From: Bacteroidales bacterium
GTDB taxonomy: Bacteria > Bacteroidota > Bacteroidia > Bacteroidales > P3
Direction of reading: 5' to 3'
DNA length: 32,395 bases
Assembly (NCBI GenBank): GCA_017934545.1
Contig: JAGBJI010000010.1
Coordinates: 1 to 32,395, forward strand
Shown piece after piece: positions 194-15,817 of the stretch. Positions within the stretch are counted from its first letter, which is position 1. Each line of letters begins with the position of its first letter. The notes under the pieces were generated by a model. That model was not told where the DNA came from, ran no database searches, and worked only from the letters and a program-made list of their open reading frames with translations. The translations under genes and the position numbers were made by a program.

Positions 194-311
194 TTTTCAG
201 AACACAATTAAAAAAAACATATGTATTTTTTCAAAAAAACATATGAATTTTAATCAAAAAACATATGTTTTTCGTTTTAAATACATATGTTTTTTATTTT
301 TAGATTCTGAA
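194..311 (+). repeat. Array 1: four CATATG units at exact 22-bp spacing
   Basis: CATATG occurs at 218, 240, 262 and 284, a spacing of 22, 22 and 22 bp. Each core lies between an A-tract and a T-rich tract. One further period out on each side are TTTCAGAA (about 195-201) and TTCTGAAAA (about 306-313), which are inverted relative to each other. The stretch 211-272 matches array 3 with a single mismatch. The array lies between the tRNA terminator and the ECF-type promoter of the next operon. A 103-codon reading frame over it is low-complexity and is not a gene. Confidence 0.93.
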
Positions 312-355
312 AACAATATTTTTTAATGCCGTCTAAAAAAATTTTTTACTGCAAT

Positions 356-382
356 TGTAACATTTTTACCCTCCCGTGCGTC
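356..382 (+). promoter_or_regulatory. ECF sigma-type promoter of the 450-3588 operon
   Basis: TGTAACA (356-362) carries a GTAAC-type -35 element. CGTC (379-382) follows the GTAAC after 17 nt, matching the usual ECF-sigma -35/-10 layout. No housekeeping TTTG/TAnnTTTG pair is seen here. The operon encodes an ECF sigma factor as its second gene, so autoregulation is the natural inference. Confidence 0.65.
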
Positions 383-449
383 ATACTTGTGTAAAGAATA
401 AAACAAAAGGATTAACGTTTTAATATTTATAAATAAAATTTAACAAAAG

Positions 450-1118
450 ATGAAGACAGTAAAAATCACGGCAATCATGCTAATCAGTGCAATGTGTTTA
501 GGTTTTTCTTCCTTAAAGGCACAGGAGCAAACTAAAAAATGGCAATACACGGGCGGAATAGAAATAAATTTTGATTTCTTGTCCGCAAACAAAGGTTGGA
601 AGCCCGCAGCGGGTTCACGGCCTGCAGGTTTCGGCGAAGGATTGGGTATAAACTTGGGAGCAAGATACGGAAGGGCATTCTTTGTTTTTGATATTGAATT
701 ATCAGGTACGGGCAATTTCAGCTCAAATACCTCAACCTGCGATTTTACCTCAGGACTTATGGGTTTTAAGATAGGATACGATTTTCTGAAATTCAAAGAG
801 CCTCATTCCAAACAAGGACTTACCTTTGTAACGGGACTGTTGTTCGGCTCCAACTCGTTGAAATACGATTTCAAAGCCATAACAGACCAAACTACGGTGA
901 TGGGTGCGAGAAATCTTTCGGCCAACTTCAACCAATCGGTCATGTATGTTCCTTTGGAATTGAGATGGAAATTAGAGTCGGCATACATCGGACTGTCGTA
1001 CATGCTTAACGTGTACCGCGGCGAAGTGACTTCGGGCGTTATTTCAACCTCTGAAATAACCGACGCTCCTAACATCAACGTTCTGCCTTTGCGTTTGAGC
1101 TTCGGATTGCAATTCTAA
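450..1118 (+). CDS. Outer-membrane beta-barrel protein (porin-family-like), first gene of ECF operon
   Basis: A 222-aa protein with a Sec signal peptide (residues 1 to about 24, ending LKAQ). The rest alternates short hydrophobic/aromatic strands with Gly- and Ser-rich turns and ends in aromatic Phe (SFGLQF), as outer-membrane barrels do. The size fits an eight-stranded barrel of the PF13568-like type. It is followed after 19 bp by the ECF sigma gene and sits behind an ECF-type promoter. It may be a target or sensor of the envelope signal handled by that sigma factor; this is inferred from position. No specific ligand can be named. Confidence 0.75.
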   Translation: MKTVKITAIMLISAMCLGFSSLKAQEQTKKWQYTGGIEINFDFLSANKGWKPAAGSRPAGFGEGLGINLGARYGRAFFVFDIELSGTGNFSSNTSTCDFTSGLMGFKIGYDFLKFKEPHSKQGLTFVTGLLFGSNSLKYDFKAITDQTTVMGARNLSANFNQSVMYVPLELRWKLESAYIGLSYMLNVYRGEVTSGVISTSEITDAPNINVLPLRLSFGLQF

Positions 1119-1137
1119 AACTCCGTAAACCTCATAT

Positions 1138-1632
1138 TTGTCGGCACTGCAAACCTTGACTGCACGCAAGTATAATACATATGTAAAGGATTTTTCCGAC
1201 AATGCTTTCCGCTTTGCTTACACCTTGGTCAGACAAAGGGAAACGGCGGAGGATATTGTGCAGGACGTATTTCTGAAACTCTGGGAAACGGGCGGCAATA
1301 TCTGCAAAGAAAAAATCAAATCTTGGATATTTTCGTCCGTTTACCACAAATCAATTGACTGCCTGCGTAAACAACGCAATTTCGACGCCATTGACGGGTG
1401 CAAAGAAGAGGTTTATCAACCGCAGATGATAATAAAAGAAGAGTTGGATAAGTTTTTGCAACAACTGCCCGCCGTTCAAAAGTCCGTTTTGGTGTTAAAA
1501 GACGAGGAAGGCTACAAATACGAAGAGATAAGTCAGATACTGAACTTGTCAATGGAGCAGGTAAAGGTGTATCTTTACAGGGCAAGAAAACAAATGCAAC
1601 AAATGATAAAAACGAAAGACAATTTGTTATGA
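1138..1632 (+). CDS. ECF subfamily RNA polymerase sigma-70 factor
   Basis: A 164-aa protein with sigma region 2 (about residues 15-75; FRFAYTLVRQ, then AEDIVQDVFLKLWE, the typical core-binding segment) and sigma region 4 (about 100-155; LPAVQKSVLVL, then YEEISQILNLS..QVKVYLYRARKQM helix-turn-helix). It directs RNA polymerase to ECF promoters. No ATG is available: an in-frame TAA lies at 1126-1128 and the first in-frame ATG is inside region 4, so a TTG at 1138 (or CTG 1147 / TTG 1156) must be used. The stop overlaps the anti-sigma start by 4 bp (ATGA), indicating translational coupling. It is likely autoregulated from the promoter at 356-382. Confidence 0.92.
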   Translation: MSALQTLTARKYNTYVKDFSDNAFRFAYTLVRQRETAEDIVQDVFLKLWETGGNICKEKIKSWIFSSVYHKSIDCLRKQRNFDAIDGCKEEVYQPQMIIKEELDKFLQQLPAVQKSVLVLKDEEGYKYEEISQILNLSMEQVKVYLYRARKQMQQMIKTKDNLL

Positions 1633-2303
1633 TAACACTTGATAATTACGAAGCGTTTTTGCTTGACAAAGCCGAAGGTACGCTAAGCAAGCAAGCCGAA
1701 AGAGAGTTGGATGAATTTTTATCCCTCCACCATGAACTCAACGGCGGCATTATTGATACGGACAGTGAAATAAAGTTCACGTATTCTACAAACGAAGAAT
1801 TCAAACTAAAAAAAACTTTGATGCGTCCTGTTTTCAATGCTTTCACATGGGTAAAAGCGGCGACGGTTGCGCTTTTCGTTGTTGCATCTGCATATTTTGT
1901 CTATACGTTTTCTGATAATACGACGCCTGACAGCCCTGTTGCAAAAGTTCCTTCCGTACCCCAACACGTCAGTTCTACAATTAAAAGCGTTGATACCGTA
2001 ACCTACGCCGTTAAACCGCAAAAACACGTAACGCAAAACATAAAACCAATAATCAAAAACGAAAAAACACAGGATTTAATTAATGAAGAACCTATTGCGG
2101 TTTATGAAGAATCCCAACCCAATACTGAACCTAAAACAACCGAAACGCAAAACACTGCAAAACAAACGGATTTGCTTATAGTATACAAGCAATCGGACAG
2201 AACGGAATCACAAAATCTTGTAGCCTATGCAGAACCCGAGCCGACAGGATTGAAAAAAATGAGAAACGAAGCTAAAGAATTTTTTAACAAAATAAGAGGA
2301 TAA
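1629..2303 (+). CDS. Membrane-bound anti-sigma factor (single TM)
   Basis: A 224-aa protein. The N-terminal cytoplasmic part (about 1-45; NYEAFLLDKAEGTLS followed by a LDEFLSLHHEL segment) resembles the short helical anti-sigma domain found after Bacteroidetes ECF genes. A single membrane helix lies at about 75-93, followed by a Thr/Lys/Glu-rich, low-complexity periplasmic tail to residue 224. No HxxxCxxC zinc motif is present. It starts inside the sigma gene stop (4-bp overlap), the classic sigma/anti-sigma arrangement. It presumably holds the sigma factor at the inner membrane. The assignment rests on topology and context more than on strong motifs. Confidence 0.75.
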   Translation: MITLDNYEAFLLDKAEGTLSKQAERELDEFLSLHHELNGGIIDTDSEIKFTYSTNEEFKLKKTLMRPVFNAFTWVKAATVALFVVASAYFVYTFSDNTTPDSPVAKVPSVPQHVSSTIKSVDTVTYAVKPQKHVTQNIKPIIKNEKTQDLINEEPIAVYEESQPNTEPKTTETQNTAKQTDLLIVYKQSDRTESQNLVAYAEPEPTGLKKMRNEAKEFFNKIRG

Positions 2304-2307
2304 AACC

Positions 2308-3588
2308 ATGAAAGCAACAAAAATTTTATTCTTATATGTATTCGCTGCATTGATATTACCGTGTACTGCACAGAACAGTATCTCCCAAGCAACGGACACG
2401 CCAATCAACCACGTAAAAATAAAAAACAACTCACACAAAACATATATAAACATATCGTCTTCAAGAGTTACTGACACGGTATCGGTATTATTTGCAACAG
2501 GCAGTGAAAACGCTGCGAAGATTGCAGGCTTGTTTTCCGTCAGGGGTGACACTCTGACGGTGGAAGATAAACAAATATCCGCCGATGCAGACATCACCAT
2601 AGAGTTACGCCTGAAAAACTGCCCGAAAACGCTTACTGCTTACGGCAATTCAGATGTTGCCATGCTCAACAATGAAACCGTCTGCATGTTTTCACTGTTT
2701 ACCGAAGACAATTCACGCTTTTGTATGATATGTCCGCAGACTTTTGTTGCCGATACACTGATAATCAAAGCCGACAGCACGTCGCAATGTATAGTTTCGG
2801 ACAGTATTGCGGTGAAAAAACACCTTGACATTGAGGCTGACGGTTCTGCACAAATACGTTGCCACAAGTATTCGTTCCCTTCGCAATATTGCAGATTGAA
2901 TCAAAACGGCGGAAAAATATTTTTGGACAATAAGCCGTTTGACATACACTCTGATTTGGAGCGTCAGCAAAACAATCTTCCGAGCGGGGTAAACAGCTTG
3001 CAGTTTTATTGGAAAATTTCGGCAGACGCAGGCTTCGTTGTACCCAAATCTGATTTCTGGGGAAGAGCATATGCATATAATGACAATTTTGACTTCCTTT
3101 GGCAAATCAATTTCCCTCACAAAAACTCCCTTATCGCAGGTTGGGGATTCGGATTCAAATATTTGCATTTCAGTGCTGACGGATATTCCGACGGATTGAA
3201 CGTTGAAAACAAAAACAATCAGATTTTGTACCGCACATGCCAAACCGTACGTTTCCCCGTTATGTACCGACGCTATTTGGACAACACCGCAAACGCTCCG
3301 AGTGTTGACATAGGACTGACACCTTATATTATATTGCGGCCGTCATGGCATATGAAATATTCCGATGCCACGGACACCAAACCTTTGTCAAAATCAGCCG
3401 TAACGTTTGAAGACGTGAACCGAAAATTTCAACTTGACGCTTATTTAGGGCTTAACTTGGGACGGAAGTTTTCAATATATACGCAGGCAAGTCTTCTGCC
3501 CGTATTGGACAAAGCAAAGACTGATAAAATGCGTTCAATAACCGTGGGAATAAGTTATAAGTTGGATTTTACTACTTGGAATTGGTAA
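2308..3588 (+). CDS. Secreted adhesin-head (GIN/DUF2807-like) plus C-terminal outer-membrane barrel protein
   Basis: A 426-aa protein starting 4 bp after the anti-sigma gene. Signal peptide about 1-21 (ends CTAQ). Residues about 40-215 are beta-rich with repeating short strands (for example LTAYGNSDVAML and LDIEADGSAQI), which resembles the GIN/DUF2807 putative auto-transporter adhesin head seen in other ECF-anti-sigma operons of the phylum. From about residue 230 to the end there are amphipathic strands rich in Tyr/Phe/Trp and Gly (LIAGWGFGFKYLHF; SITVGISYKLDF), consistent with an outer-membrane barrel. The likely location is the outer membrane or cell surface, and the function is unknown. 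Confidence 0.65.
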   Translation: MKATKILFLYVFAALILPCTAQNSISQATDTPINHVKIKNNSHKTYINISSSRVTDTVSVLFATGSENAAKIAGLFSVRGDTLTVEDKQISADADITIELRLKNCPKTLTAYGNSDVAMLNNETVCMFSLFTEDNSRFCMICPQTFVADTLIIKADSTSQCIVSDSIAVKKHLDIEADGSAQIRCHKYSFPSQYCRLNQNGGKIFLDNKPFDIHSDLERQQNNLPSGVNSLQFYWKISADAGFVVPKSDFWGRAYAYNDNFDFLWQINFPHKNSLIAGWGFGFKYLHFSADGYSDGLNVENKNNQILYRTCQTVRFPVMYRRYLDNTANAPSVDIGLTPYIILRPSWHMKYSDATDTKPLSKSAVTFEDVNRKFQLDAYLGLNLGRKFSIYTQASLLPVLDKAKTDKMRSITVGISYKLDFTTWNW

Positions 3589-3681
3589 AAGAATAAAAAA
3601 TATTAACAAAAACTTTTTTGCCGCACTTTATGCATGTTTTTCCTTGGCAAAACCAATAAACAGTGTGATTAAAAAAGATTC

Positions 3682-3800
3682 TTTTCTGAAAGTAAAAATA
3701 AAAAACATATGTTTTTGAAATAAAAAACATATGTTTTTTGATTGAAATACATATGTTTTTTTCTCAAAATACATATGTATTTTTGTTTTCTTTTGCGAAA
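3682..3800 (-). repeat. Array 2: four CATATG units at exact 22-bp spacing (inverted orientation)
   Basis: CATATG occurs at 3706, 3728, 3750 and 3772, all 22 bp apart, each with an A-tract before and a T-tract after. The next phased units outside are TTTTCTGAA (about 3682-3690) and TTTTGCGAAAA (about 3791-3801). Its reverse complement aligns with arrays 1 and 3 (the unit ending in GTATTTT comes first), so this copy is flipped. It lies in the 234-bp space between two converging genes. A TTTTTTGCC (3614-3622) and a GGCAAAA (3646-3652) lie further left. Confidence 0.93.
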
Positions 3801-3822
3801 ACAATTTTGTAAAGCCAAACTC

Positions 3823-5352
3823 TTACAGATTAATCTTCGCTATGGCTGTATCCAAACGGAACAATATCTCCTGTTTGCCTAACACTTTCATTATATCCAG
3901 CATATTCGGTCCTTTGGTGTCGCCCACAACCGAAAGACGAAGGCAATTCATTATCTGTCCCATGTTAAGTTCATTTTTCGGAATGTAGTCCATAAGGAAA
4001 TCTTCGGCTTTTTCAGCCCAATCATTATCCTCTATATCATGCAAATGTTGCGATATTGTCTGCATGATTGCACCCGTTCCTTCTTTCCAACGCTTTTTCA
4101 ATGCTTTTTCTGCGTACTGTTCAGGCCGTACAAAGAAATAATCGCTGTTTAACCACAACTCATTGGCAAACGAACAACGCTCTTTGACCAAGCCGACTAC
4201 CTGTTTAACGGTTTGATACTCTGTATTGATACCTTTTTGTTGCAATTGCTTTTGATAAACTTCGGCAAGTTCGTCATCTGAAACTTGTTGCAAATATTGG
4301 TGATTAAACCATTTGGCTTTGTCAAGGTCAAATTTGGCTCCGTGTTTGGATATTCTGTCTATGGAAAACTTGTTTACCAACTCGTCCAATGAGAATATCT
4401 CCTGTTCGGTTCCGTCATTCCAACCCAAAAGTGCCAACATGTTAACCACAGCCTGCGGCAGATAGCCGCTTTCTCTGTATCCGGAAGATATTTCCCCGCT
4501 TTTGTTATCGTGCCATTGCAACGGGAAGACAGGAAATCCCAATCTGTCGCCGTCGCGTTTGGAAAGTTTGCCCTTACCGTCGGGTTTAAGCAACAAAGGC
4601 AGATGTGCAAACTCGGGCATCGTATCTTCCCAACCGAAAGCACGGTAAAGCGATACGTGCAACGGACAACTCGGCAGCCACTCTTCACCTCTGATGACAT
4701 GGGTTATATGCATCAATCTATCATCTACTATATTGGCCAGATGGTAAGTAGGCATGCCGTCGCTTTTGTAAAGAACTTTGTCGTCCAAGAGTGAAGAGTC
4801 CACGCTGATATGCCCTCTTATCAAATCGTCAAACTCAATTTTCTCCCCTTTTTCAAATTTGAATCTTATAACATATGCTTCTCCCTGTTCCAAACGCCGC
4901 TGCACCTCATCGGCAGGCAATGACAACGAATTCTTAAGCGTGTTTCTTGTATTGCAATCATATTGGAAAGTCTGCTTTTGTGCTTCCGCTTCCTGCCTTT
5001 TGGCGTTCAGCTCTTCGGGAGTGTCAAAAGCATAGTATGCTTTGCCCCTGTTGACAAGTTCAAGTGCGTAATCTTTGTAAAGATGTTTGCGTTCTGACTG
5101 ACGGTAAGGACCGTATGGTCCGCCCATTGTCACGCCTTCGTCAAATTTAAGTCCCAACCACTGAAATGATTCTATAATATATTGTTCTGCACCCTCAACA
5201 AAACGCGTTTGGTCTGTGTCTTCTATTCTTAAAATGAAATCTCCGCCGTTTTGTTTTGCAAACAAATAATTGTACAACGCCGTTCTGACCCCTCCTATAT
5301 GCAACGGACCGGTAGGCGAAGGTGCAAATCTTACTCTTACTTTATGTTCCAT
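3823..5352 (-). CDS. gltX: Glutamate--tRNA ligase
   Basis: A 509-aa class I aminoacyl-tRNA synthetase that charges tRNA-Glu with glutamate in the cytosol. The catalytic fold begins [12 protein letters not shown], with the HIGH-type motif at residues 18-21. IEDTDQTR (43-50) and the KMSKS-type motif KLSKRDG (262-268) follow. The C-terminal anticodon-binding helical part runs to residue 509. Length and N-terminus match bacterial GluRS, and the ATG at 5352 is immediately upstream of the conserved start of the fold. It is monocistronic, diverging from the ABC transporter genes and converging on the envelope operon across array 2. Confidence 0.97.
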
Positions 5353-5398
5353 TATGTTTTTATGTATTATTAATGTGTGAATACTTGATTTTAAGTTG

Positions 5399-5406
5399 CA
5401 AAAATA
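5399..5406 (-). promoter_or_regulatory. Probable gltX -7 element (TATTTTTG)
   Basis: Read on the reverse strand this is TATTTTTG, a match to the Bacteroidetes -7 consensus TAnnTTTG, about 47 bp upstream of the gltX ATG. The -33 position has only a weak TTTA-like match. Confidence 0.45.
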
Positions 5407-5432
5407 CGCAAAATATTAATATCATATAAACA

Positions 5433-5465
5433 TTTTAACCAACCTGTTAATTTTTTGTATCTTTG
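5433..5465 (+). promoter_or_regulatory. Promoter of the ABC ATPase/binding-protein operon
   Basis: TATCTTTG at 5458-5465 is a perfect -7 element, with a TTTT at 5433-5436 as a -33-like element 21 bp upstream. It decides the gene start: transcription would begin near 5472, so an upstream TTG at 5455 cannot be used and the ATG at 5500 is the start. Confidence 0.7.
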
Positions 5466-5499
5466 CAATTGCAAAAAAATAACAACAACTTTATCTCTT

Positions 5500-6282
5500 A
5501 TGACAACACAATCTGGTGACACGGCAATAATCACCGCACACAATATTTCGTACAGCACACACTGCACCGAAATATTACACAACATGAGTTTCAATATCCG
5601 TCCCCGCTCGCTTACGGGCATTATAGGAATGAACGGAAGCGGCAAAACCACATTGATGAAACTGCTTTGCAATCTGATAAATCCTTCTTCGGGGGAAATA
5701 CATCTTAAAGACAAACCTTTGAACAGTTATTCCCGCAGGGAATTGTCAAAAAACATTTCCATGGTTTTTCAAAACAATCCGACGGATTTTGATTTTTCCG
5801 CCCTGCAAATAGTTTTGATGGGACGCATGCCCTATCAAAAAATGCTGTCAAGGGAAACCGACGAAGACTTTGCTGCGTGTAAACAAGCCATGTGCCAAAC
5901 CCAGACGTGGCATCTGCGAAACCGTAACATCAATTCGCTTTCGGGCGGTGAGAAACAACGCATCTTCATTGCCAGAAGCCTTGCCCAGCACACCGATGTT
6001 CTGCTTTTGGACGAGCCTGTTGCCAATTTGGACATCAAACATCAATACGAGATAATGAATCTGTTGAAAGAAATACAGTCTTCCCGCTCTGCAACCGTTG
6101 TAACAGTGCTTCACGATTTGAGCCTTGCCTTAAAATATTCCGATTATATATTGGCACTAAAGCAAGGTAACCTTTTTATGATTGACAATACCGAAAAAGT
6201 GCTTACACCCGGCAACATTTCCCTCTTGTTTGAAGTTTCTGCGGGTATAACCGATGATAAAAACGTAATTATAACCAAATAA
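5500..6282 (+). CDS. ABC transporter ATP-binding protein, FecE/BtuD-like (iron-chelate/cobalamin family)
   Basis: A 260-aa ATPase with Walker A GMNGSGKTT (43-51), Q-loop Gln91, signature LSGGEKQR (147-154), Walker B VLLLDEP (167-173) and switch His205. The order and spacing, and the LHDLSLALKYSD segment, match ATPases that power uptake of ferric siderophores, heme or cobalamin through FecCD/BtuC-type permeases. The binding protein gene follows 2 bp downstream. No permease gene lies beside it, which is unusual. Start chosen from the promoter at 5433-5465. Confidence 0.9.
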   Translation: MTTQSGDTAIITAHNISYSTHCTEILHNMSFNIRPRSLTGIIGMNGSGKTTLMKLLCNLINPSSGEIHLKDKPLNSYSRRELSKNISMVFQNNPTDFDFSALQIVLMGRMPYQKMLSRETDEDFAACKQAMCQTQTWHLRNRNINSLSGGEKQRIFIARSLAQHTDVLLLDEPVANLDIKHQYEIMNLLKEIQSSRSATVVTVLHDLSLALKYSDYILALKQGNLFMIDNTEKVLTPGNISLLFEVSAGITDDKNVIITK

Positions 6283-6284
6283 CA

Positions 6285-7178
6285 ATGAAACGTATTATTT
6301 TTTTATGCCTAACGGCATGCGTATTAATAGGCTTGAACGGTTGCAAAAAAACTTCCGTTGAGCCTCAGATAGGGGAAGACAACGTTTACGTATCGTCAAA
6401 CCCGAAAATAAAGAAAGACAATCAGCGTATTGCAAGCGTATCTCCGCAGGTGACGGAAATATTGTTTGCTTTGGGGTGCGGGCAACGGCTTGTCACGCGT
6501 ACGGATTTCTGTAAATTTCCCCCGCAGGCTGAAAAAATCCAATCGGTCGGCGGTATCAACGACGCCAATTTAGAACTTATCATCGCCTTACGGCCTGACA
6601 TTGTGATAACTTCGTCAATTTTTCCGAAAAAATCAGTAACCATGATTGAGGATGCAGGCATTGCGGTGATGAGTTTCAGAGAAGGGTCTAAAATACAAGA
6701 CATGTACGCCGTGATGCGTACCTTGGGCAAGATAACAGGTAAAGAAAAAACAGCGGACAGTTTGATTGAAGACTGCAAACAACGTCTGCACGCCGTGTCC
6801 GTGCAATGCAAAAAACTCTCGGAGCAATCCGCAAGAACAAAGCCCAAAGTCTATTATGTTGTAGGGTTCGGTACAAGCGGTGATTTCTCTGCCGGAGGAG
6901 ATACATACGTAAACGAAATCATCACCTTGGCAGGCGGCGATAACATAGCCAAGAATGCAACCAATTGGTCGTTCAACAAAGAAGAATTATTCCGCAATCA
7001 ACCCGACTATATCTTCGTCCGCAGTTACGACAGGGAGAACTTTATGAACATGCATCCGTACAGCGAACTGAAAGCCGTTAAAGAGGGCAAAGTATTCGGC
7101 ATAGACAACTTGGACAATCAGACGCCCCGCAGCATAGATGCAATAGAATACATCTTTAAAACCATATACCGACAGTAA
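6285..7178 (+). CDS. Periplasmic binding lipoprotein, BtuF/FecB-like (PF01497 type)
   Basis: A 297-aa protein. The lipoprotein signal ends in LNGC (Cys20), so it is probably anchored to a membrane facing the periplasm. RIASVSPQVTEILFALG, then RTDFCKFPP, LIIALRPDIVITSS and the C-terminal ELKAVKEGKVFGID blocks are typical of class III binding proteins for vitamin B12 or iron chelates: two lobes joined by a long helix. It delivers ligand to a FecCD/BtuC permease. The partner ATPase lies 2 bp upstream and a strong terminator follows. Cobalamin versus iron chelate cannot be decided from sequence. Confidence 0.88.
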   Translation: MKRIIFLCLTACVLIGLNGCKKTSVEPQIGEDNVYVSSNPKIKKDNQRIASVSPQVTEILFALGCGQRLVTRTDFCKFPPQAEKIQSVGGINDANLELIIALRPDIVITSSIFPKKSVTMIEDAGIAVMSFREGSKIQDMYAVMRTLGKITGKEKTADSLIEDCKQRLHAVSVQCKKLSEQSARTKPKVYYVVGFGTSGDFSAGGDTYVNEIITLAGGDNIAKNATNWSFNKEELFRNQPDYIFVRSYDRENFMNMHPYSELKAVKEGKVFGIDNLDNQTPRSIDAIEYIFKTIYRQ

Positions 7179-7204
7179 CCAATCATATTTTTATACCAAT
7201 AAAG

Positions 7205-7239: not shown

Positions 7240-7264
7240 ATCTGAAACCTTATGCGAAAGATTT

Positions 7265-7385
7265 CTTTTCAGAAAAGAAAAATAAAAAACATATGTATTT
7301 TTTCAAAAAAACATATGAATTTTAATTAAAAAACATATGTTTTTGAAACAAAAAACATATGTTTTTTTGAAATGGTTTTAGAAAA
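7265..7385 (+). repeat. Array 3: four CATATG units at exact 22-bp spacing
   Basis: CATATG occurs at 7290, 7312, 7334 and 7356 (22, 22, 22 bp). TTTTCAGAAAAG (7267-7278) sits one period before the first core and TTTTAGAAAA (7376-7385) one period after the last. Bases 7284-7344 match array 1 with one mismatch in 61. It lies between the terminator at 7205-7239 and the candidate small RNA, in a convergent intergenic region. Confidence 0.93.
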
Positions 7386-7550
7386 GACAATTTTCAGCCG
7401 TTGATTTAACGGCACGTTTTTTGAAGATACAACCAAAGAAGACAAAAAACAATGCTGATTATACTGAAAAGAAAAACATCATCAGTACTATAACCGTAAA
7501 TTTTGTCGGAAAAGAGTTTTTTGTTGTCAATAAACAAACGGATTCGGGGT
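7386..7550. other. Non-coding stretch with no supported gene
   Basis: No credible reading frame or promoter was found. A short inverted repeat GCCGTT/AACGGC (7397-7402 with 7408-7413) followed by ACGTTTTTT could be a weak forward-strand terminator backing up the one at 7205-7239. Confidence 0.5.
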
Positions 7551-7648: not shown

Positions 7649-7654
7649 GTTTTG

Positions 7655-7686: not shown

Positions 7687-7708
7687 CTTTTTGGAAAGAA
7701 AATATGCT

Positions 7709-9200: not shown

Positions 9201-9298
9201 AATTTTAACTGTTTATTTAAATTATTAATAAAATGAATTGTAATTTGTAATTCGGAATAAATAAATGTAAAAGACCTGAAAAAAGGAAATTGAAAAGC

Positions 9299-9376: not shown

Positions 9377-9395
9377 GTTTTCAAGTTTTACCGTG

Positions 9396-9427
9396 CAAAA
9401 TTACAAAAGAAATGTATTCCGACCAAA
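9396..9427 (-). promoter_or_regulatory. tnaA promoter (TTTG-N20-TAATTTTG)
   Basis: On the reverse strand TTTG (9427-9424) and TAATTTTG (9403-9396) are separated by 20 nt, a full match to the Bacteroidetes consensus. The start of transcription would be near 9389, leaving an untranslated leader of about 190 nt. The promoter begins only 24 bp beyond the queA stop and no clear terminator separates them, so read-through from queA is possible. Confidence 0.75.
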
Positions 9428-9450
9428 TTTTTTGAACAAAAACGGCTTTT

Positions 9451-10662
9451 TTACAAACATTTAAACAAACATGCGTCGCCGTAAGAAAGGAATCTGTAGC
9501 CGTTATCCAACGCATGCGTATACACATCCCGCCATTTATCGCCTATCATAGCACTGACCAACAACAGCAATGTGCTTTTGGGTTGATGGAAATTGGTAAC
9601 CATGCCCTTTACTATCCTGTAACGGTAAGAAGGAACGATAATCAACTGCGTTTGTCCGTACAAACAATCCGTTTTTTTCTTATCCATCATCTCCAAAACG
9701 GCAGCCAACGCTTCTTTTGCCGTAATATCTTTGTGCGTTTGGTACGGATACCACTGCTTAATGTCAATCTCCGTATCCGAAAAGCCGTTTTCCTTAAGCC
9801 ATACGCCGTACCAATACAGCGATTCCACTGTTCTTACCGATGTAGTACCTACACACACGGTTGTCTTGTCACAATAGTTATACAAATTCTCAACAACCTG
9901 TCGCGTTACGGTTATTCTCTCGGTGTGCATGGTGTGTCCGCCGACAGTATCAGTTGTTACGGGTTTAAAAGTTCCCGCTCCGACATGGAGCGTTACGAAC
10001 GATGTTGCAATGCCTTGCGACTTTAAATCCCTGAAAGTTCTGTCGGAAAAATGCAGACCCGCAGTCGGTGCGGCTACCGAGCCGTCAAAATGTGCGTAAA
10101 GGGTTTGGTAATCCGTTTTGTCCGTATCCTGCGAAGCCCGGTTCAGATAGGGCGGCAACGGAATGACACCGAAGTCCTGCATAATCTCTGCAAACGACAG
10201 CGGCTTGTCCCAAGAAAATTTTACGACCCAACTGTCGCCCTCGGCATACAATCTCTGTGCCTGCAAAGTAACTCTTTCTCCGTTTATTTCCCTGTCCTGT
10301 GTCAACACGCCATCTTTCCATTTTTTATTATTGCCTATAAGACACTTCCATGTTACCGTTTCGCTGCAAGAGAACGACACTTGGAAATCATTAGGCGTGA
10401 CAGGCTCCAGGCAAAATATCTCAATTTGACTTCCCGTTTGCTTTTTGAAAAACAAACGGGAATAAATTACTTTGGTATCATTAAATATTAATAAGGTATC
10501 TTCCGAAAGCAATGACGGCAATTCATAAAAAACTTTGTCTTTTATGTTGTTTCCGTCAAAATACAACAACTTGGCATTGTCACGTTGTGCCAACGGATAC
10601 TTGGCAATCCTCGTTTCATCAAGAGGATAATTATATTGTTCTATGGAAATATCCTGTACCAA
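9451..10662 (-). CDS. queA: S-adenosylmethionine:tRNA ribosyltransferase-isomerase
   Basis: A 403-aa cytosolic enzyme that transfers and isomerises the ribosyl part of SAM onto preQ1-modified tRNA, forming epoxyqueuosine at the wobble position. Diagnostic blocks include YPLDETRIAKYPL (16-28), LIFNDTKVIYSRL, VAAPTAGLHFSD, FVTLHVGAGTFKPV and MVTNFHQPKSTLLLLVSA. The length and some divergent stretches match the longer Bacteroidetes form (enterobacterial QueA is about 350 aa). It is the last gene of pssA-purS-queA, 12 bp after purS. Confidence 0.95.
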   Translation of the reverse strand: MVQDISIEQYNYPLDETRIAKYPLAQRDNAKLLYFDGNNIKDKVFYELPSLLSEDTLLIFNDTKVIYSRLFFKKQTGSQIEIFCLEPVTPNDFQVSFSCSETVTWKCLIGNNKKWKDGVLTQDREINGERVTLQAQRLYAEGDSWVVKFSWDKPLSFAEIMQDFGVIPLPPYLNRASQDTDKTDYQTLYAHFDGSVAAPTAGLHFSDRTFRDLKSQGIATSFVTLHVGAGTFKPVTTDTVGGHTMHTERITVTRQVVENLYNYCDKTTVCVGTTSVRTVESLYWYGVWLKENGFSDTEIDIKQWYPYQTHKDITAKEALAAVLEMMDKKKTDCLYGQTQLIIVPSYRYRIVKGMVTNFHQPKSTLLLLVSAMIGDKWRDVYTHALDNGYRFLSYGDACLFKCL

Positions 10663-10674
10663 GAAGGTAAAATC

Positions 10675-10923
10675 TTATTTCAAAACAGTGATTTCGTAAC
10701 TCTCCATTATAGGATTATACAAAAGTTCTTTGCATGCTTTTTCCACCGTAGCCTTTGCTTCATTTTCGTCTTTGGCTTCTACATCCAATGTTATATGTTT
10801 GCCTATGCGCACATTGTCTATAGTATTTATGTCTATGTTTTTCATTGACGAAGTGACTGCTTTGCCCTGTGGGTCCAACAATGCCTTCAACGGCATTATG
10901 TCTATTATTACTTGGTATTTCAT
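10675..10923 (-). CDS. purS: Phosphoribosylformylglycinamidine synthase subunit PurS
   Basis: An 82-aa protein of the typical PurS length. The start KYQVIIDIMPLKALLDPQGKAV, with the conserved DPQGKAV block, and the VRIGKHITLDVEA strand followed by a helix and the closing LLYNPIMESYEI match the family. PurS is the small scaffold of the multi-subunit FGAM synthase (PurS-PurL-PurQ) in purine synthesis. Its ATG overlaps the pssA stop by 4 bp (ATGA), so the two are translationally coupled. No purL or purQ is in the window. Confidence 0.9.
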   Translation of the reverse strand: MKYQVIIDIMPLKALLDPQGKAVTSSMKNIDINTIDNVRIGKHITLDVEAKDENEAKATVEKACKELLYNPIMESYEITVLK

Positions 10924-11663
10924 CTTTGTGAATGTTTTGATATATTATTAAATATTGATAAAATTATATACATTATTATTATAATAGGTATAGCTCCGAA
11001 ATAAAGCAAAACCAAAAGTACTGCACTGATTGCAAGAAATACATACCGCAGTTTGTTGTCCCCAAATTTCAGATTGTGGAATTTCAGAGAAAACATCGGA
11101 ATCTCGCTCACCAAAAGTACACTGCAAATGCATGCACCCACAACTATAAAGTACGGAGATGACAAAAAACGGTAGTATTTGCTGAAAAAAACTCCGCCGT
11201 CCTGCAAAAACCAAAGCGAAACATTATTTTGAGCCAAATAACCTACTAAAGGAATGCTTAACCATATGAATGCATTGGCGGGAGTTGCCAATCCGATAAA
11301 ACTATCTGTCTGTCTGACGTCCAAATTAAACTTTGCAAGGCGGTAGGACGACATCAAAGCCATAATAATTGTAGGAATTACGGCAATACCGTCATGCCCT
11401 GTAACCACCAATATATATCCTGCTATCAAAGACGGTGCAACCCCGAATGTAACTACATCACTCAAAGAATCCAATTCTTTTCCTATCGGCGAAGATACTT
11501 TCAACAGTCTTGCAGTCATACCGTCAAAAAAATCGAAAACCGCTCCTAAAATAATGAATACTGATGCCAAAAAAGGATTATCAAAATAGAGAAGTTGGAA
11601 TATGGATTCTATTCCGCAAAAAAGATTCAACAGTGTTATTATATTCGGTATTTGCTTTCTCAT
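10920..11663 (-). CDS. pssA: CDP-diacylglycerol--serine O-phosphatidyltransferase
   Basis: A 247-aa multi-pass membrane enzyme that makes phosphatidylserine, the precursor of phosphatidylethanolamine. The CDP-alcohol phosphatidyltransferase motif is complete: Asp47-Gly48, Ala51-Arg52, Gly61, Asp65 and Asp69 at the family spacing. The N-terminus (IPNIITLLNLFCGI) and about seven or eight hydrophobic segments fit the PssA subgroup. It is the first gene of the operon with purS and queA. A palindrome lies at the predicted transcription start. Confidence 0.93.
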   Translation of the reverse strand: MRKQIPNIITLLNLFCGIESIFQLLYFDNPFLASVFIILGAVFDFFDGMTARLLKVSSPIGKELDSLSDVVTFGVAPSLIAGYILVVTGHDGIAVIPTIIMALMSSYRLAKFNLDVRQTDSFIGLATPANAFIWLSIPLVGYLAQNNVSLWFLQDGGVFFSKYYRFLSSPYFIVVGACICSVLLVSEIPMFSLKFHNLKFGDNKLRYVFLAISAVLLVLLYFGAIPIIIIMYIILSIFNNISKHSQR

Positions 11664-11677
11664 CTGTTAAATATAAC

Positions 11678-11702
11678 CCGTCTGTTTCAGACGGCAAAAT
11701 TA
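11678..11702 (-). promoter_or_regulatory. pssA promoter -7 element with a perfect inverted repeat at the start site
   Basis: TAATTTTG on the reverse strand (11702-11695) matches the -7 consensus. Directly downstream is CCGTCTG-TTT-CAGACGG (11678-11694), a perfect 7-3-7 inverted repeat covering the expected start of transcription (about 11688). It could be an operator or a hairpin at the 5' end of the mRNA. The -33 match is weak. Confidence 0.45.
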
Positions 11703-11766
11703 ATAATTTTATATTTAACGGAAGTATTTTTAAGGTATTTTTATATCGTGTAATGCATTTTTTTCT

Positions 11767-11774
11767 TATTTTTG
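11767..11774 (+). promoter_or_regulatory. Probable -7 element (TATTTTTG) for the lipoprotein gene
   Basis: TATTTTTG matches TAnnTTTG 48 bp before the ATG at 11822; the -33 region is only T-rich. It rules out longer upstream starts (for example near 11564) for the lipoprotein gene. Confidence 0.5.
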
Positions 11775-11821
11775 CAAATGTAATCATTATTGTTCAACAA
11801 ATAAATACAAAATATATACAT

Positions 11822-12226
11822 ATGAATTCAATTAAAATAAAAATACTTGCACTGTTAGCAATCTTTACCGCAATAGGATGCTCACCCGACAAAGACGATT
11901 ATACGGAAAAATGGGTAGGAAATTGGCAGACGACCGACGAAACCGCATTCCCGCAAACAAAATACTTGCATACAGGGGCTATAACCAAGTCTTCGGAAGG
12001 TACGAACAGAATTATAATTGACGGAACGCTGTTAGGCATAAATTCTTCTTATCAAATACCTGCCAAAGTGTCGTCGGAAACTGACGCAACCATCGATTAC
12101 ACGAACAATTTCCGCATTGTAGGAACTGCAAAGTTCAACAACAAAGATACTATCTGGCTACGTCTGAATATATCACAAAACAATAAATCGGTAAACGATA
12201 CATTGATTCTTACGAAAATCAAATAA
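11822..12226 (+). CDS. Small lipoprotein, lipocalin-like (function unknown)
   Basis: A 134-aa protein with a lipoprotein signal peptide ending in TAIGC (Cys about 19). The mature part begins with acidic linker residues and then KWVGNWQTTDE, a W-x-G-x-W-like opening seen in lipocalin-type barrels, followed by alternating strands (IIIDGTLLGI; ATIDYTNNF; DTIWLRLNIS). A small calycin-like domain is plausible but not proved. The start is set by the promoter at 11767 and the immediate signal sequence. It lies 34 bp upstream of frr, with which it may be co-transcribed. Confidence 0.7.
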   Translation: MNSIKIKILALLAIFTAIGCSPDKDDYTEKWVGNWQTTDETAFPQTKYLHTGAITKSSEGTNRIIIDGTLLGINSSYQIPAKVSSETDATIDYTNNFRIVGTAKFNNKDTIWLRLNISQNNKSVNDTLILTKIK

Positions 12227-12260
12227 AACAACATAGGGATAATCATAAAAATATACAACA

Positions 12261-12833
12261 ATGAATACACAGATAACAACATTAATCAATGAGGCGTCTG
12301 CAACCATGACCTCATCGGTTGAACACTTGGAAAAAGGACTTAAAGCCATGCGTGCGGGCAAAGCATCGCCGCAAATGTTGGCAGGAGTTAAAGTTGATTA
12401 CTACGGAACATTGACTCCGATAGAACAGGTGGGCAATGTAAACACACCCACAGCCAACCAAATAGTGATACAACCGTGGGACAAAGGCTCAATACCTGCA
12501 ATAAACAAAGCCATACTGGATGCTAACTTGGGCTTTACGCCGAAAGTGGAAGCCGATTTACTACGTATAACATTGCCTCCTCTTACCGAAGACAGAAGAA
12601 AAGAATTGGTTAAATCCGTAAAGTCGGAAGGCGAAAACGCAAAGGTGTCCGTAAGAAACATAAGACGCAACATACTTGACAAAGTAAAGAAAACAAAAGA
12701 CAGTAAAGAGAATCCTGCAACGGAAGATGAGATAAAACAAGCCGAAAAAGAGATTCAGGATTTGACGGATAAGTTTATAAAAAACATTGATTCTGTTCTT
12801 GCCGAAAAGGAAAAAGAATTGATGACAATATAA
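12261..12833 (+). CDS. frr: Ribosome recycling factor
   Basis: A 190-aa protein that, with EF-G, splits post-termination ribosomes. KGLKAMRAGKASPQML (25-40), VDYYGTLTPIEQVGNV and ANQIVIQPWD (66-75) are characteristic, followed by EDRRKELVKSVKSEGENAKV and RNIRRNILD of the three-helix bundle. Length is close to the standard 185. The usual partner pyrH is not beside it; instead a lipoprotein gene precedes it. A terminator follows directly. Confidence 0.97.
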   Translation: MNTQITTLINEASATMTSSVEHLEKGLKAMRAGKASPQMLAGVKVDYYGTLTPIEQVGNVNTPTANQIVIQPWDKGSIPAINKAILDANLGFTPKVEADLLRITLPPLTEDRRKELVKSVKSEGENAKVSVRNIRRNILDKVKKTKDSKENPATEDEIKQAEKEIQDLTDKFIKNIDSVLAEKEKELMTI

Positions 12834-12844
12834 CCCGGATATTC

Positions 12845-12888
12845 AAAGGTGATGAATACTTTTCATTTAAATGTTCATCACCTTTTTT
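12845..12888 (+). terminator. frr terminator
   Basis: A 12-bp stem (12845-12856 with 12874-12885), a 17-nt loop and a T run to 12888. The next small gene starts 11 bp later, so it is either expressed by read-through or from a promoter not recognised here. Confidence 0.85.
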
Positions 12889-12898
12889 GTTTTTTAAT

Positions 12899-13075
12899 AT
12901 GAAAAAGATTTGTCCTAAATGCAAAAAAGAATTCGTGTGTTCGCACGATGCGTCGTGTTTTTGCATGAAATACCGTTTAAGCAATCAAACGGCGGACTAT
13001 TTAAAGAAAACTTACGACAATTGTCTGTGCGAAGAATGTCTTAAACAGTACGCAGACAAACAACCAAACGGCTGA
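12899..13075 (+). CDS. Small cysteine-rich protein, CWC family-like
   Basis: A 58-aa protein with eight cysteines (5, 8, 14, 20, 22, 42, 44, 47) in the order CPKC, C, CFC, CLCEEC, suggesting one or two zinc sites; the opening KKICPKCKKEFVC is typical of the bacterial cysteine-rich CWC family. The function of that family is not known to me. The ATG at 12899 is preferred over a TTG at 12887 that falls in the terminator's T run. It ends 1 bp before the opposing GtrA gene ends. Confidence 0.75.
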   Translation: MKKICPKCKKEFVCSHDASCFCMKYRLSNQTADYLKKTYDNCLCEECLKQYADKQPNG

Positions 13076-13076
13076 T

Positions 13077-13568
13077 TCAGGCTTTATTTTTCCTAAAAAC
13101 AAAAGTACGGTTAAGCAAAAACGTCATTATAGCGTTGGGTAATACTACTATCAACTGCCCTATGGCGTCGCCGACCTTGTCATGATTCAACGAAAACGAC
13201 TCTACAATATTTAGATGTTTCCCGTCTAAAGAAATAATCCATTCGTACAACCCGCTTATATCCAAAAGGTGCAACTCCAAAAGGTTGATAACGTACATTA
13301 TTCCGTAAACTACAAAAAACTGAACTATAACATTGTAACCTTTGTTCTGAAAAACAATTTTTCCCGTGCTGTGATAATTGAACGTAACGCCCAATACGGT
13401 TGAGGTAAGCACCGCCCACGCTCTCGGCATGCCTATCCAACGGCATATAATAAATAATGTATAGCCTACAACCGTGTTTATAACCCCGACGAACAGAAAA
13501 CGGATAAACGGATTCTCAATCCGCATGAGCAAACTTACAGGTTTATGTAAAAGTTGTTTGAAAGTCAT
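13077..13568 (-). CDS. GtrA-family membrane protein
   Basis: A 163-aa protein with four membrane helices at about 22-46, 49-74, 82-104 and 134-158. FIRFLFVGVINTVVGY and the closing FLLNRTFVF are the usual GtrA-like (PF04138) ends. Such proteins are thought to move lipid-linked sugars across the inner membrane for polysaccharide or O-antigen glucosylation. A polar stretch of about 30 residues between helices 3 and 4 (about 105-133) is longer than I expect for the family. It is the last gene of a three-gene reverse operon; gap to the upstream gene 47 bp. Confidence 0.85.
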   Translation of the reverse strand: MTFKQLLHKPVSLLMRIENPFIRFLFVGVINTVVGYTLFIICRWIGMPRAWAVLTSTVLGVTFNYHSTGKIVFQNKGYNVIVQFFVVYGIMYVINLLELHLLDISGLYEWIISLDGKHLNIVESFSLNHDKVGDAIGQLIVVLPNAIMTFLLNRTFVFRKNKA

Positions 13569-13615
13569 ATATTAAATATTGAACGGAATGTATCGTATAA
13601 GCATTTTGAGAAAAC

Positions 13616-14893
13616 CTATCTGCTGCAATTCTTCTCTGTCATTATATCCAAGATAAGTTTGTCCGTTTCGTCCATTCCGTAACGGCCTATTTTACCTATT
13701 GAAGCTATGGATTTGTCAATGTCAGCGTCGGCTATACCGTCGGTAGTGTCCACTACTATGTCGTCAAGGGCCAACAAAACGCTGTCAAACGCACTGTTCA
13801 ATCCCGCCGAAATCTTCAAGGCACACGACGGTTTGGCTCCGTCGCACACCATACCCGTAATAGTGTTTATCATATTGTTGAGTGCAAAACACATCTGCTT
13901 GAAACTGCAACCCGCAAGCAAGGCTATACCGCTTGCAGCCCCCATCGAAGCGTTGACCACTCCGCAAAGGGCGCTCAAACGTCCTATTTTGCTTTTGATA
14001 TATATACTCATCAAGTGCGACAAAGTCAATGCCCGTGTTATTGATTCCTTGTCCGCATTTTTCTTTATGCCGTAATAGTATACGGGCAATGTACATGTAA
14101 TGCCTTGGTTGCCGCTTCCGCTGTTGGAATATATGGGAAGAGTGATTCCGTCCATACGTGCGTCCGATGCGGCACATGTTCTGCCTATTATCTCTGCTCT
14201 TATGCTTTTATCCCAACACCCGTACAATTTCTTACCTATCCTCAATCCGTATTCTCCGTCAAGGCTTTGCTGCGAACATTTGTCATTTAGGGTAACCGTT
14301 TCATCAATCCACTGCAATTCTTCCAAAGGCGTCAACGTTGCATATTCCCATACCTGCAACGCAGTAAGGTTTTGGGCTGCCGCATCGTCACTGCAACCTT
14401 GCTGTTCCTGTTTGCAGTCTTGGTGAAACAACACTTCGCCGTTTTTTTCCGTATGAACGAAATTCGTATGCGTGCCTGATATTACGGCAACTGCCGATTC
14501 ATTCAGTGCATAGCAATGACATTCTATGTAAAGTTTTTCCTTCGTGTCCTTGGTTTTAATGTCTATTGTATGCTTTTCAAGCCATTGCTGTGCCTGATTC
14601 ACATGTTCTTTGGCCGAACAAAGCACTTGCAGCTGTTTGGACGAATCTCCGCAAACCACACCGAGTGCTACGGCTATGGGAAGACCTATTTTGCCCGTAC
14701 CGGGTATGCCTACGCCCATAGCGTTCTTCACTATATTGCCCGAAAGAAACAATTCAACCCTTTCAACTTCCTTGCCGAGTATTTCTTTTGCCTTTGCCAC
14801 GCACAAAGCAACTGCAACAGGCTCCGTACAACCCACCGCAACTACGATATTTTGTTGCATGAGCCTGCGGATACACTCACTCATACGGTCCAT
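13616..14893 (-). CDS. UPF0597 / serine dehydratase-like protein (CyuA/YhaM-like L-cysteine desulfidase)
   Basis: A 425-aa protein with VAVGCTEPVAVALC (18-31), GNIVKNAMGVGIPGTG, then SGSGNQGITCTLPV, LSALCGVVNASMGAASGIA and GMVCDGAKPSCALKIS. The C-terminal cysteines (in LCGVV and VCDGAKPSC) are those thought to hold a [4Fe-4S] cluster, as in L-serine dehydratase alpha chains. E. coli CyuA of this family degrades cysteine to pyruvate, ammonia and sulfide, so an anaerobic cysteine-degrading role is likely but inferred. A thioredoxin-fold lipoprotein gene lies 24 bp upstream. Confidence 0.87.
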   Translation of the reverse strand: MDRMSECIRRLMQQNIVVAVGCTEPVAVALCVAKAKEILGKEVERVELFLSGNIVKNAMGVGIPGTGKIGLPIAVALGVVCGDSSKQLQVLCSAKEHVNQAQQWLEKHTIDIKTKDTKEKLYIECHCYALNESAVAVISGTHTNFVHTEKNGEVLFHQDCKQEQQGCSDDAAAQNLTALQVWEYATLTPLEELQWIDETVTLNDKCSQQSLDGEYGLRIGKKLYGCWDKSIRAEIIGRTCAASDARMDGITLPIYSNSGSGNQGITCTLPVYYYGIKKNADKESITRALTLSHLMSIYIKSKIGRLSALCGVVNASMGAASGIALLAGCSFKQMCFALNNMINTITGMVCDGAKPSCALKISAGLNSAFDSVLLALDDIVVDTTDGIADADIDKSIASIGKIGRYGMDETDKLILDIMTEKNCSR

Positions 14894-14917
14894 AGAATCA
14901 ATACGTTTGTTTGAAAA

Positions 14918-15508
14918 TTATTTTTCAAAAACTTTTTTCAAAACTTCTCCGCGGTATTTCTTGGAATATTTGTCGCTGAATTTCTTTAAGGACATTTCTT
15001 TGTTGTATCCTTCGGCAAAATATACCAATACAGGTTCCAACTCCTGTGCATTTCTGAAGCCCAACAAACAATCTGCTGCACGGAAATCGCTTTTGCGTAT
15101 TGCCATTGTAGGATATCCGCTGCCCGATTGGCCTTCCCACAAAAGTTTCATCAACTCGTGCGTGCCTCCCCTGCCCTGACGGGTGGACGGGTTGTATATA
15201 TTGCCGTTTATTTTTACGGGTTGTCTGCCCTCTGCGTCAAATTTGCAGGGATAATAATAGTAATTCAATATAGCGGCAACAGTATCGTTGGAAAAAGTCT
15301 TTGAATCTAACAAACGGCAATAGCCGCACCAATCGGTATAACAGTCTATGAAAAACATCTTGGCACTGTCGCCGTCCTTGGAAGCTTGTTCCAATGCCTG
15401 CGGAACGCTCATCCATTTAACCTTTGAAGATGTTTCCGTTTGGGAAAAACATCCCGTTGCCGTGAGCATCATAGATGCAAGGGCTAACATAAACATTGCT
15501 TTTTTCAT
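14918..15508 (-). CDS. Thioredoxin-fold lipoprotein
   Basis: A 196-aa protein with signal sequence 1-19 and Cys20 in ATGC, a probable lipidation site. The thioredoxin-like core has FFIDCYTDWCGYCRLLD with redox motif C61-G-Y-C64, and a cis-proline GYPT at Pro133. It resembles the Thioredoxin_7/DUF255-type domains of exported Bacteroidetes disulfide proteins. It probably reduces or isomerises disulfides in the periplasm. First gene of the operon with the UPF0597 protein and GtrA, with a promoter at 15588-15618. Confidence 0.85.
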   Translation of the reverse strand: MKKAMFMLALASMMLTATGCFSQTETSSKVKWMSVPQALEQASKDGDSAKMFFIDCYTDWCGYCRLLDSKTFSNDTVAAILNYYYYPCKFDAEGRQPVKINGNIYNPSTRQGRGGTHELMKLLWEGQSGSGYPTMAIRKSDFRAADCLLGFRNAQELEPVLVYFAEGYNKEMSLKKFSDKYSKKYRGEVLKKVFEK

Positions 15509-15587
15509 GTCTTATATTTTAAAAATTCATACTCTTTTTCCCGTATGCAAATCTGCACTTAAAAACCCGTGCAATGCAAACGGAATG

Positions 15588-15618
15588 CAAATTTACACAA
15601 AAATACCGTATCTACAAT
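15588..15618 (-). promoter_or_regulatory. Promoter of the thioredoxin-lipoprotein operon
   Basis: Reverse strand: TAAATTTG (15595-15588) matches TAnnTTTG, and ATTG (15618-15615) lies 19 nt upstream in place of TTTG. The start of transcription would be near 15580, 70 bp before the ATG. Confidence 0.5.
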
Positions 15619-15635
15619 ATTAAAACGCAATAAAA

Positions 15636-15817
15636 TAGCAACGCCCTGAAAAATTAAAATCGCAACCCAAATAAAAAAAACATATGTATTTTGAAGAAAA
15701 AACATATGTTTTTGAACGGAAATACATATGTTTTTTGATTTAAAAACATATGTTTTTTTTTGAAATGAAGCGTTGCTTTAAATTTTTGTTTTGTATTTCT
15801 GCGTAATTCCGCAGCGG
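15636..15817 (+). repeat. Array 4: four CATATG units at exact 22-bp spacing
   Basis: CATATG occurs at 15681, 15703, 15725 and 15747 (22, 22, 22 bp) between A- and T-tracts. Phased outer units are AGCAAC (about 15637) and TCGCAACCC (about 15660) on the left, and AAGCGTTGC (about 15768), TTTTGTATTT (about 15789) and CAGCGG (about 15812) on the right. Unlike the other copies it lies between divergent genes, so it is not a shared terminator. No gene is seen in the rest of the 379-bp gap. Confidence 0.92.

Follow-up and report, generated by a model that had tools for sequence, protein, structure and literature searches.

Dispersed intergenic arrays of four phased CATATG palindromes in a Bacteroidales genome

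Phased palindromic arrays in the window and the genome

The window considered here, i.e., the whole 32,395-nucleotide stretch of DNA that was analyzed, lies at the start of a contig (C12 in our numbering) of the Bacteroidales assembly GCA_017934545.1 (hereinafter G000), which totals 2.38 Mb in 14 contigs with a completeness of 100% and a contamination of 8.1%. It carries genes for GltX, TnaA, a substrate-binding protein, an iron-type transporter, a sigma factor and a histidine kinase, and between its genes lie copies of an element, which we term family A, built around four copies of the palindromic core CATATG at a pitch of 22 bp. The six nearest matches of GltX in named records (85–72% identity) are all from Bacteroidales/Bacteroidota metagenome-assembled genomes, three of them labeled deer rumen; a Porphyromonas origin, to which family names had first pointed, was discarded in the light of these matches. 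The first-pass annotation of the window had reported four arrays of four such cores, and all 16 core starts and each of the 12 intervals of 22 bp are reproduced (Table 1).

Table 1. Positions of the phased arrays in the window
Feature	Position	Strand	Details
Family A element 1	184..323	+	cores at 218, 240, 262, 284; ends TTTTCAGAA and TTCTGAAAA
Family A element 2	3672..3811	- (by linker 2)	cores at 3706, 3728, 3750, 3772; convergent gap after gltX
Family A element 3	7256..7395	+	cores at 7290, 7312, 7334, 7356; convergent gap between the substrate-binding protein gene and tnaA
Family A element 4	15647..15786	-	cores at 15681, 15703, 15725, 15747; divergent gap ahead of the histidine kinase gene
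Family B array	22677..22736		three A6-core-T6 units, pitch ~22 bp; outer arms GCCCTTTCTGAAAAG / CTTTCACAAGGGGC
Family B array, GCCGA-arm subtype	25863..25922		three units, pitch ~22 bp

The annotation had also proposed a genome-wide search for further copies, and these are abundant: CATATG recurs at 22 bp in 332 pairs, 215 triples and 105 quadruples, as compared to zero in each class for the reversed pattern, which served as the control for the genome-wide pattern counts. Provided that no five-core array exists, these figures imply 105 four-core arrays along with five three-core and seven two-core arrays. The anatomy of the arrays, the constraint on them and their placement were studied in 1.51 Mb (64% of the assembly), with arrays too close to the ends of a stretch left out of the counts; none of the 86 groups of cores there has five, 82 have four, two have three and two have two. 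Among the CATATG-to-CATATG spacings of up to 70 bp, 250 of 259 are exactly 22 bp and two are 23 bp. The feature is real and lies far above chance. Three quadruples (among the matches listed) recur in contigs C4 and C7 with the same shift of 7,440 bp, and C4 (196,855 bp) stops where a fourth C7 array starts; the two contigs appear to overlap, with the assembly interrupted at the repeat, and the three may have been double-counted. The same overlap is a possible source of the 8.1% contamination estimate. A tightened three-core pattern gave no match in viral contigs.

The consensus of 49 aligned copies, whose limits are approximate, shows an intergenic element of about 140 bp extending from about -34 to +106 relative to core 1, with AAAAAATTcTTTTCaGAA, an A-rich stretch, the four cores, a T-rich stretch and TTCtGAAAAcAAtTTTT in that order; beyond it the flanking sequence is unrelated from copy to copy. 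What is conserved in each unit is a near-palindrome of 16 bp, A5-CATATG-T5, from which individual slots depart slightly. Thus, the first-pass description of an A-tract and a T-tract around each core needs correction with regard to uniform T-tracts, the usual sequence after core 1 being TATTT and that after core 2 AATTT. The same annotation had seen core-like motifs at the next phased position outside each array, and these are borne out as TTTTCnGAAAA-like units centered 21.5 bp from the center of the outer core, so that the element comprises six phased dyads. As to its claim that the linkers differ, linker 3 and the ends do vary widely, but linkers 1 and 2 are alike in most copies, being TATTTTTTCAAAAAAA in 47 and AATTTTAATCAAAAAA in 60 of the 81 copies used for the linker and pairwise-difference counts. 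The distances of linkers 1 and 2 are correlated (r 0.39, p 0.002). Since such slot-specific linkers are common to the copies, the latter derive from one array. Linker 3 is found in both orientations (e.g., 19/3, 7/4 and 6/3), and its inversion would fit template switching between the flanking palindromes. Among the four window elements, element 4 has the linkers and ends farthest from the consensus. Being short, AT-rich, represented by 105 quadruples and bounded by imperfect terminal inverted repeats, family A has the form of a miniature inverted-repeat transposable element (MITE).

Against this background of divergence the cores are nearly invariant. All four cores are perfect and spaced at 22 bp in 81 arrays, and one further four-core array has a single 23-bp interval. 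A search for core decay, which allowed up to three core mismatches and needed at least two exact cores, gave one core substitution, in a four-unit array among the three-core groups, as against about 58 predicted for 81 arrays with linker 2, the best-conserved linker, as the yardstick (39 substitutions in 1,296 bp). Likewise, a profile search tolerating broken cores in 777 kb of the assembly returned two-core and one-core elements and cross-hits to the second family described below, and no decayed four-unit array. Any two of the 81 copies differ at a minimum of 12 and a median of 33 of 140 positions, a figure inflated by indels in the arms as the alignment was ungapped. Mean pairwise differences amount to 0.137, 0.057 and 0.234 for linkers 1, 2 and 3, respectively, and the tract columns, which were not used in choosing the arrays, vary by 0.019 on average vs 0.23 in the linker centers. 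Because the cores stay intact while the copies differ elsewhere, this comparison indicates that the 16-bp unit is probably under purifying selection.

With genes predicted by our own hexamer caller, family A arrays fall in 45 tandem, 30 divergent and 7 convergent gaps, with three inside an open frame or at an edge, where a length-weighted expectation gives fractions of 0.51, 0.32 and 0.16 for tandem, divergent and convergent gaps, respectively. Hence, divergent gaps are used about as expected (30 of 82 vs about 26) and convergent gaps are somewhat underused (7 of 82 vs about 13). In tandem gaps the arrays lie at a median of 71 bp from the upstream stop and 155 bp from the downstream start. The earlier statement that tandem, convergent and divergent gaps are all occupied holds for the genome but not for the window, which offers two convergent gaps, one divergent gap and a first array near the contig start with no known left neighbor; the tandem cases lie elsewhere. 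The corollary that a terminator or promoter role alone is insufficient stands, as arrays occur in every gap type, divergent ones included.

Related arrays and their turnover between species

Family A is part of a broader class of arrays in this genome. The 1.51 Mb contain 85 arrays of family A, 92 of family B, whose units have the form A6-core-T6, and fewer of each of the families C, D and E, such that 186 of the 379 gaps of at least 170 bp hold an array of one of the five families. Tandem Repeats Finder (TRF), run on the above 777 kb with rows of fewer than 2.4 copies left out, finds 122 arrays with a period of 20–23 bp vs 13 of other periods, as compared to 14 vs 49 in an outgroup of 74 Bacteroidota loci (L037–L110; 1.38 Mb), the base composition of which is unmatched. 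The units of these arrays are mostly palindromic, with at least six of seven dyad pairs in 101 of the 122 unit consensuses as against a fraction of 0.30 for shuffled units. The family B subtype B1 has exactly three units in 65 of 68 arrays in G000, 7 of 7 in the stretches of the sister species G005 and 3 of 3 in those of a further sister, G007. These numbers pertain to arrays of at least three units and come from a unit-number counter used for family B alone, which undercounts family A in G000 owing to the incomplete T-tract after its cores 1 and 2. The core letters and arms of family B differ among the three species.

Families A and B tend to segregate along the contigs (67 runs vs 84.8 in a within-contig null, p 0.003), and per 25 kb their clumping is mild for A (p 0.027) and of p 0.054 for B. 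The segregation is seen on C10, C11, C1 and C5; on C10 the region from 10 to 96 kb is mostly A and that from 164 to 277 kb mostly B. The GC skew of C1, C5, C10, C11 and C12, as a guide to the origin–terminus axis, has no simple relation to the arrays.

The first-pass annotation had suggested looking for the same arrays in sister genomes. None of 13 sister species has a CATATG triple at 22 bp. Of the 393 genomes sampled from the order, three others contain the triple pattern, with 4, 1 and 1 matches and unrelated linkers, and the reversed control has 17 matches in a single genome (G100). One genome from another family of the order (G043, locus L114) shows three CATATG at 22 bp in four places with GC-rich, partly palindromic linkers; this is apparently an independent case of a 22-bp pitch with a CATATG core. 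The less specific A5N6T5 triple is found 322 times in G000 (reversed control 20, itself able to hit these arrays in a shifted register), whereas the 392 other genomes of the order sample, among them four that belong to the same family but to other genera, have none. If its gaps are allowed to vary slightly, the triple is present in 5 of 13 sister species (138, 66, 6, 4 and 2 matches; controls 0, 2, 0, 1 and 0, respectively). Arrays with a period of 20–23 bp are present in 7 of the 10 sister species sampled, the three without having been sampled over less than 12 kb each, and in some sisters 21–22-bp arrays lack A-tracts altogether, as with TATAATGGCATTATGATTAAAC in G009 and AATACATAGCGCGATCTATTGC in G012.

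The most informative relative is G005, whose GltX is 84% identical. Here, 13 A-like arrays were fetched with a three-unit pattern admitting any core and assigned to the A-like class by their cores; the unit counter required cores beginning with C and ending with G, and set the orientation by most units, then by a TATTT start. All 13 have four units, and 37 of their 39 intervals are 22 bp, the other two being 23 bp. Their cores are CCTATG, CCTATG, CCnnGG and CATAGG in 9 of the 13 (up to orientation); of the remaining four, three deviate at unit 1 and L242 has another unit order. TATTT follows the first unit in 11 of the 13, like core 1 of G000, in an orientation chosen to favor it, and some left ends resemble the end unit of G000. 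Thus, number, pitch and one slot-specific detail are common to the two species, and the core letters have changed as a set. The annotation's inference of selection gains from the dearth of core substitutions as regards the sites and from the constancy of four units in 13 of 13 arrays as regards number and register; within G000, the latter part is weakened by the shared register and number being at least partly inherited, as linkers 1 and 2 are common by descent.

The places occupied by the arrays are not retained in the same manner. Next to genes paired as reciprocal best hits (identity of 45% or more), and counting gaps longer than 150 bp, an array is present in G000 in 11 of 18 gaps that hold one in G005 and in 29 of 52 gaps that are array-free there (p 0.79). 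The lack of correlation at orthologous gaps implies that positions turn over. Of 13 gene ends beside G005 A-like arrays that could be matched in G000, two have an A array (background 0.05–0.09). At one gap with both neighbors conserved (C5:43994-44453), G000 has about five AAGTCACATTTTT / AAGTGTGA-type units and G005 a four-unit A-like array (L262). Conserved array positions, as hinted by this pairing of a AAGTCACATTTTTACATGATAA-type 22-bp array with an A-like one, are not upheld by the unbiased table of gaps. In naming absence at the same loci in close relatives as refuting, the annotation described what is literally found, with no CATATG triples and places uncorrelated with those in G005. 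The annotation's idea survives because G005 keeps the layout with other cores, mostly elsewhere.

Some arrays also overlap open frames: of 287 in the 1.51 Mb, 27 lie in open frames of at least 120 aa, three of which look by eye like real genes. These three are in frame inside apparent genes at C1:116169-116235 (L120:16169-16235; family C), C11:154124-154183 and C11:193865-193927 (both B-type), and one of the genes encodes an NAD-dependent epimerase. The remainder, including family A arrays at C2:1336 and C5:263976, have the look of repeats within coding sequence or of frames arising by chance. Among four clear orthologues of the gene with the family C array, the loop holding it is shorter in G002 and G012 and longer and different in G007 and G004. 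As a clean empty site this loop is only suggestive on account of its divergence, and the in-frame cases show that such arrays can land in genes.

Competing explanations

The above observations have to be accommodated in any account of the arrays. The units are dyad-symmetric, show constraint and have an integral helical pitch; in these respects they resemble a phased protein-binding array. We accordingly weigh first a reading, which going by the sequence we consider just probable, wherein the arrays are dispersed, position-flexible repeats of phased palindromes for a dimeric DNA-binding protein of a chromosome-organizing or nucleoid type. Because the units are symmetric, constrained and set two turns apart, one dimer might sit on each palindrome with four neighboring dimers aligned along the same helix face. 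Since the sites are flexible in position and rigid in sequence, a role needing many of them, such as chromosome organization, would be expected, with the assembly acting via the total genomic number of sites rather than via control of particular neighbors. A drift in the specificity of the protein could lead to replacement of the cores of the whole set, and new copies would most likely be made by way of a non-autonomous mobile element. Number and pitch hold in two species, and the palindromes appear to be under selection. The arrays belong to the interspersed-palindrome kind, and a route from there to something newer is plausible, if unproven.

Several points weigh against this reading. Core invariance could come from (local) gene conversion between copies, and the linker rate used as the yardstick may include old subfamily differences. 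The linker-2 center columns vary by 0.02–0.10, which means that the contrast between tracts and linker centers comes mostly from linkers 1 and 3. The outgroup loci are not matched in base composition, with a G+C of 0.475–0.57 where measured (L037–L047), and in loci classed as other genus only 6 of 15 units are strongly palindromic. Unit number is not uniform across the families, as 19 arrays of the subtype B2 in G000 have three units and 11 have four, so that neither a common protein type nor a constant unit number can be assumed for every family. The segregation of A and B is of moderate strength and may reflect gene content, the position table for G005 is small (70 gaps), and both the binding protein and its purpose are putative.

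The best-surviving alternative, which we regard as possible but rather unlikely, is that family A is a plain non-autonomous MITE family with the 22-bp units as transposase-binding sites and no host function. It would explain the imperfect terminal inverted repeats, the idiosyncratic linkers common to the copies, which point to spread by copying, the uncorrelated presence at orthologous gaps, and the three in-frame arrays (one of family C and two B-type), together with the shorter family C loop in G002 and G012. However, no signal of target-site duplication was found in 49 arrays for lengths of 2–6, 8 and 9 over a grid of offsets, the best z being 4.0 vs maxima of 3.6–5.3 in 20 permutations (null for lengths 3–6). 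None of 8 genomes encodes a Y1/RAYT transposase (PF01797; other transposase families were not searched), whereas 5 of 14 control genomes do. Dead MITE copies should decay evenly, but no pair of the 81 copies differs at fewer than 12 of 140 positions and yet the cores are intact. Nor is there a repeat of at least 400 bp at 85% identity in the 777 kb; at 350 bp and 75% identity there are 24 rows in the 1.51 Mb, the transposase content of which was not looked at.

Interspersed bacterial palindromes are usually taken as selfish, but here number and pitch agree in two species and the core letters change as a set. Were a protein to read the sites, this would be a chromosome-scale binding system visible from sequence alone; were a transposase to read them, it would be a repeat family with binding sites that can be taken straight from the sequence. 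In either case, one can ask in testable form how a bacterium maintains roughly 100 scattered, identical sites whose places change between species. As a bolder extension of the DNA-binding reading, which we put forward tentatively and hold to be doubtful, the arrays might form a geometry-based, chromosome-wide address system of the genus, with a set dyad number per family (four for A and three for B1), a two-turn pitch, a species-specific core code that changes jointly at scores of places as the protein evolves, and families marking different chromosome territories.

Phased palindromes are typical of operators, and the arrays lie in gaps, at the above-noted median of 155 bp ahead of the next start in tandem ones. 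They could hence be operator arrays of one transcription factor with the neighboring genes as its regulon. We deem this quite unlikely, as the window neighbors listed at the outset share no common theme, convergent gaps are used too, though below expectation, and the array is not kept at orthologous ends. Intrinsic curvature is a still weaker prospect, wherein A- and T-tracts at every 11 bp would bend the helix for supercoiling or packing with the cores mattering little. The A5-N6-T5-N6 layout would indeed set tract centers 11 bp apart, and the abundance of the A5N6T5 triple in G000 as against the other genomes of the order is in line with it, but this account does not predict invariant CATATG cores, and some sister species have 21–22-bp arrays without A-tracts. 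That the arrays are hairpin-forming RNA or terminator elements is highly improbable: single-stranded DNA folds of the four window arrays are indeed far stronger than those of shuffles (z -5.3 to -8.1), but any palindrome array folds well, the end arms are no more alike within a copy than between copies (0.486 and 0.492), A arrays are about as frequent in divergent gaps as expected, and Rfam has no match above the gathering score in the window. A minisatellite grown by slippage would account for tandem units of one length and is scarcely credible given the nearly fixed copy number and the slot-specific linkers common to different places.

Known repeat systems and accompanying repeats

Rickettsia palindromic elements are palindromic repeats that can sit in frame within genes; we know of no phased arrays of the family A kind among them. 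Iteron arrays of plasmid origins and phased operator arrays have direct repeats of about 22 bp with protein sites on one face of the helix, but they occupy one or a few loci, whereas family A has about 100 dispersed copies. The first-pass statement that no named repeat family has this layout agrees with a limited literature search over open-licence PMC papers, which turned up none; one may nevertheless exist in print.

A close parallel is the BrickBuilt MITE of Porphyromonas gingivalis, which, in the accessible part of its description, has 23-nt tandem units numbering from 1 to 22.8 at 19 copies in ATCC 33277, a leader and tail of up to 285 and 318 nt, and loci common to strains of one species (PMC4596501). 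Both are intergenic in Bacteroidales, with tandem units of about two turns inside an element with terminal inverted repeats. Unlike BrickBuilt as so described, family A has about 105 copies, almost always four 22-bp units, palindromic cores and another sequence, and it has no leader or tail, which places it outside the BrickBuilt definition (PMC4596501). Repetitive extragenic palindromes (REPs), as presented in the available portion of PMC3733652, are marked by GTAG or CGTC tags and RAYT transposases, have dimer spacers that mostly vary between 20 and 100 bp, and are found chiefly in unidirectional and convergent gaps. Family A is comparable to REPs and the bacterial interspersed mosaic elements (BIMEs) in being made of high-copy intergenic palindromes, REPs themselves being sometimes grouped, but has a pitch fixed at 22 bp and uses divergent gaps as expected and convergent ones less. 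Its consensus lacks a GTAG or CGTC tag, which together with the absence of the Y1 transposase in the 8 genomes sets it apart from the REP/RAYT system. The units of family E contain CGTC. The palindromes of algal mitochondria are, from what is accessible of PMC4524435, something else than family A arrays, and the accessible text of PMC2267715 on stem-loop families holds no match to the terms looked for.

Other repeats accompany the arrays. In the window, 21-bp tandem units flank the first family B array of Table 1 on both sides (22632-22674 and 22756-22802). The longest array in the stretches from sister species is a 21-bp array of about 12 ATTAATCTGCGTGATTATTTT-type units in G007 (L145:14583-14831). 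In G000, a 369-bp element with a family C array at its start and GTGTATCA-type repeats inside is present at C1:63510-63878 and C10:112740-113107 in versions that are 97% identical, and has several diverged relatives in C1 and C10.

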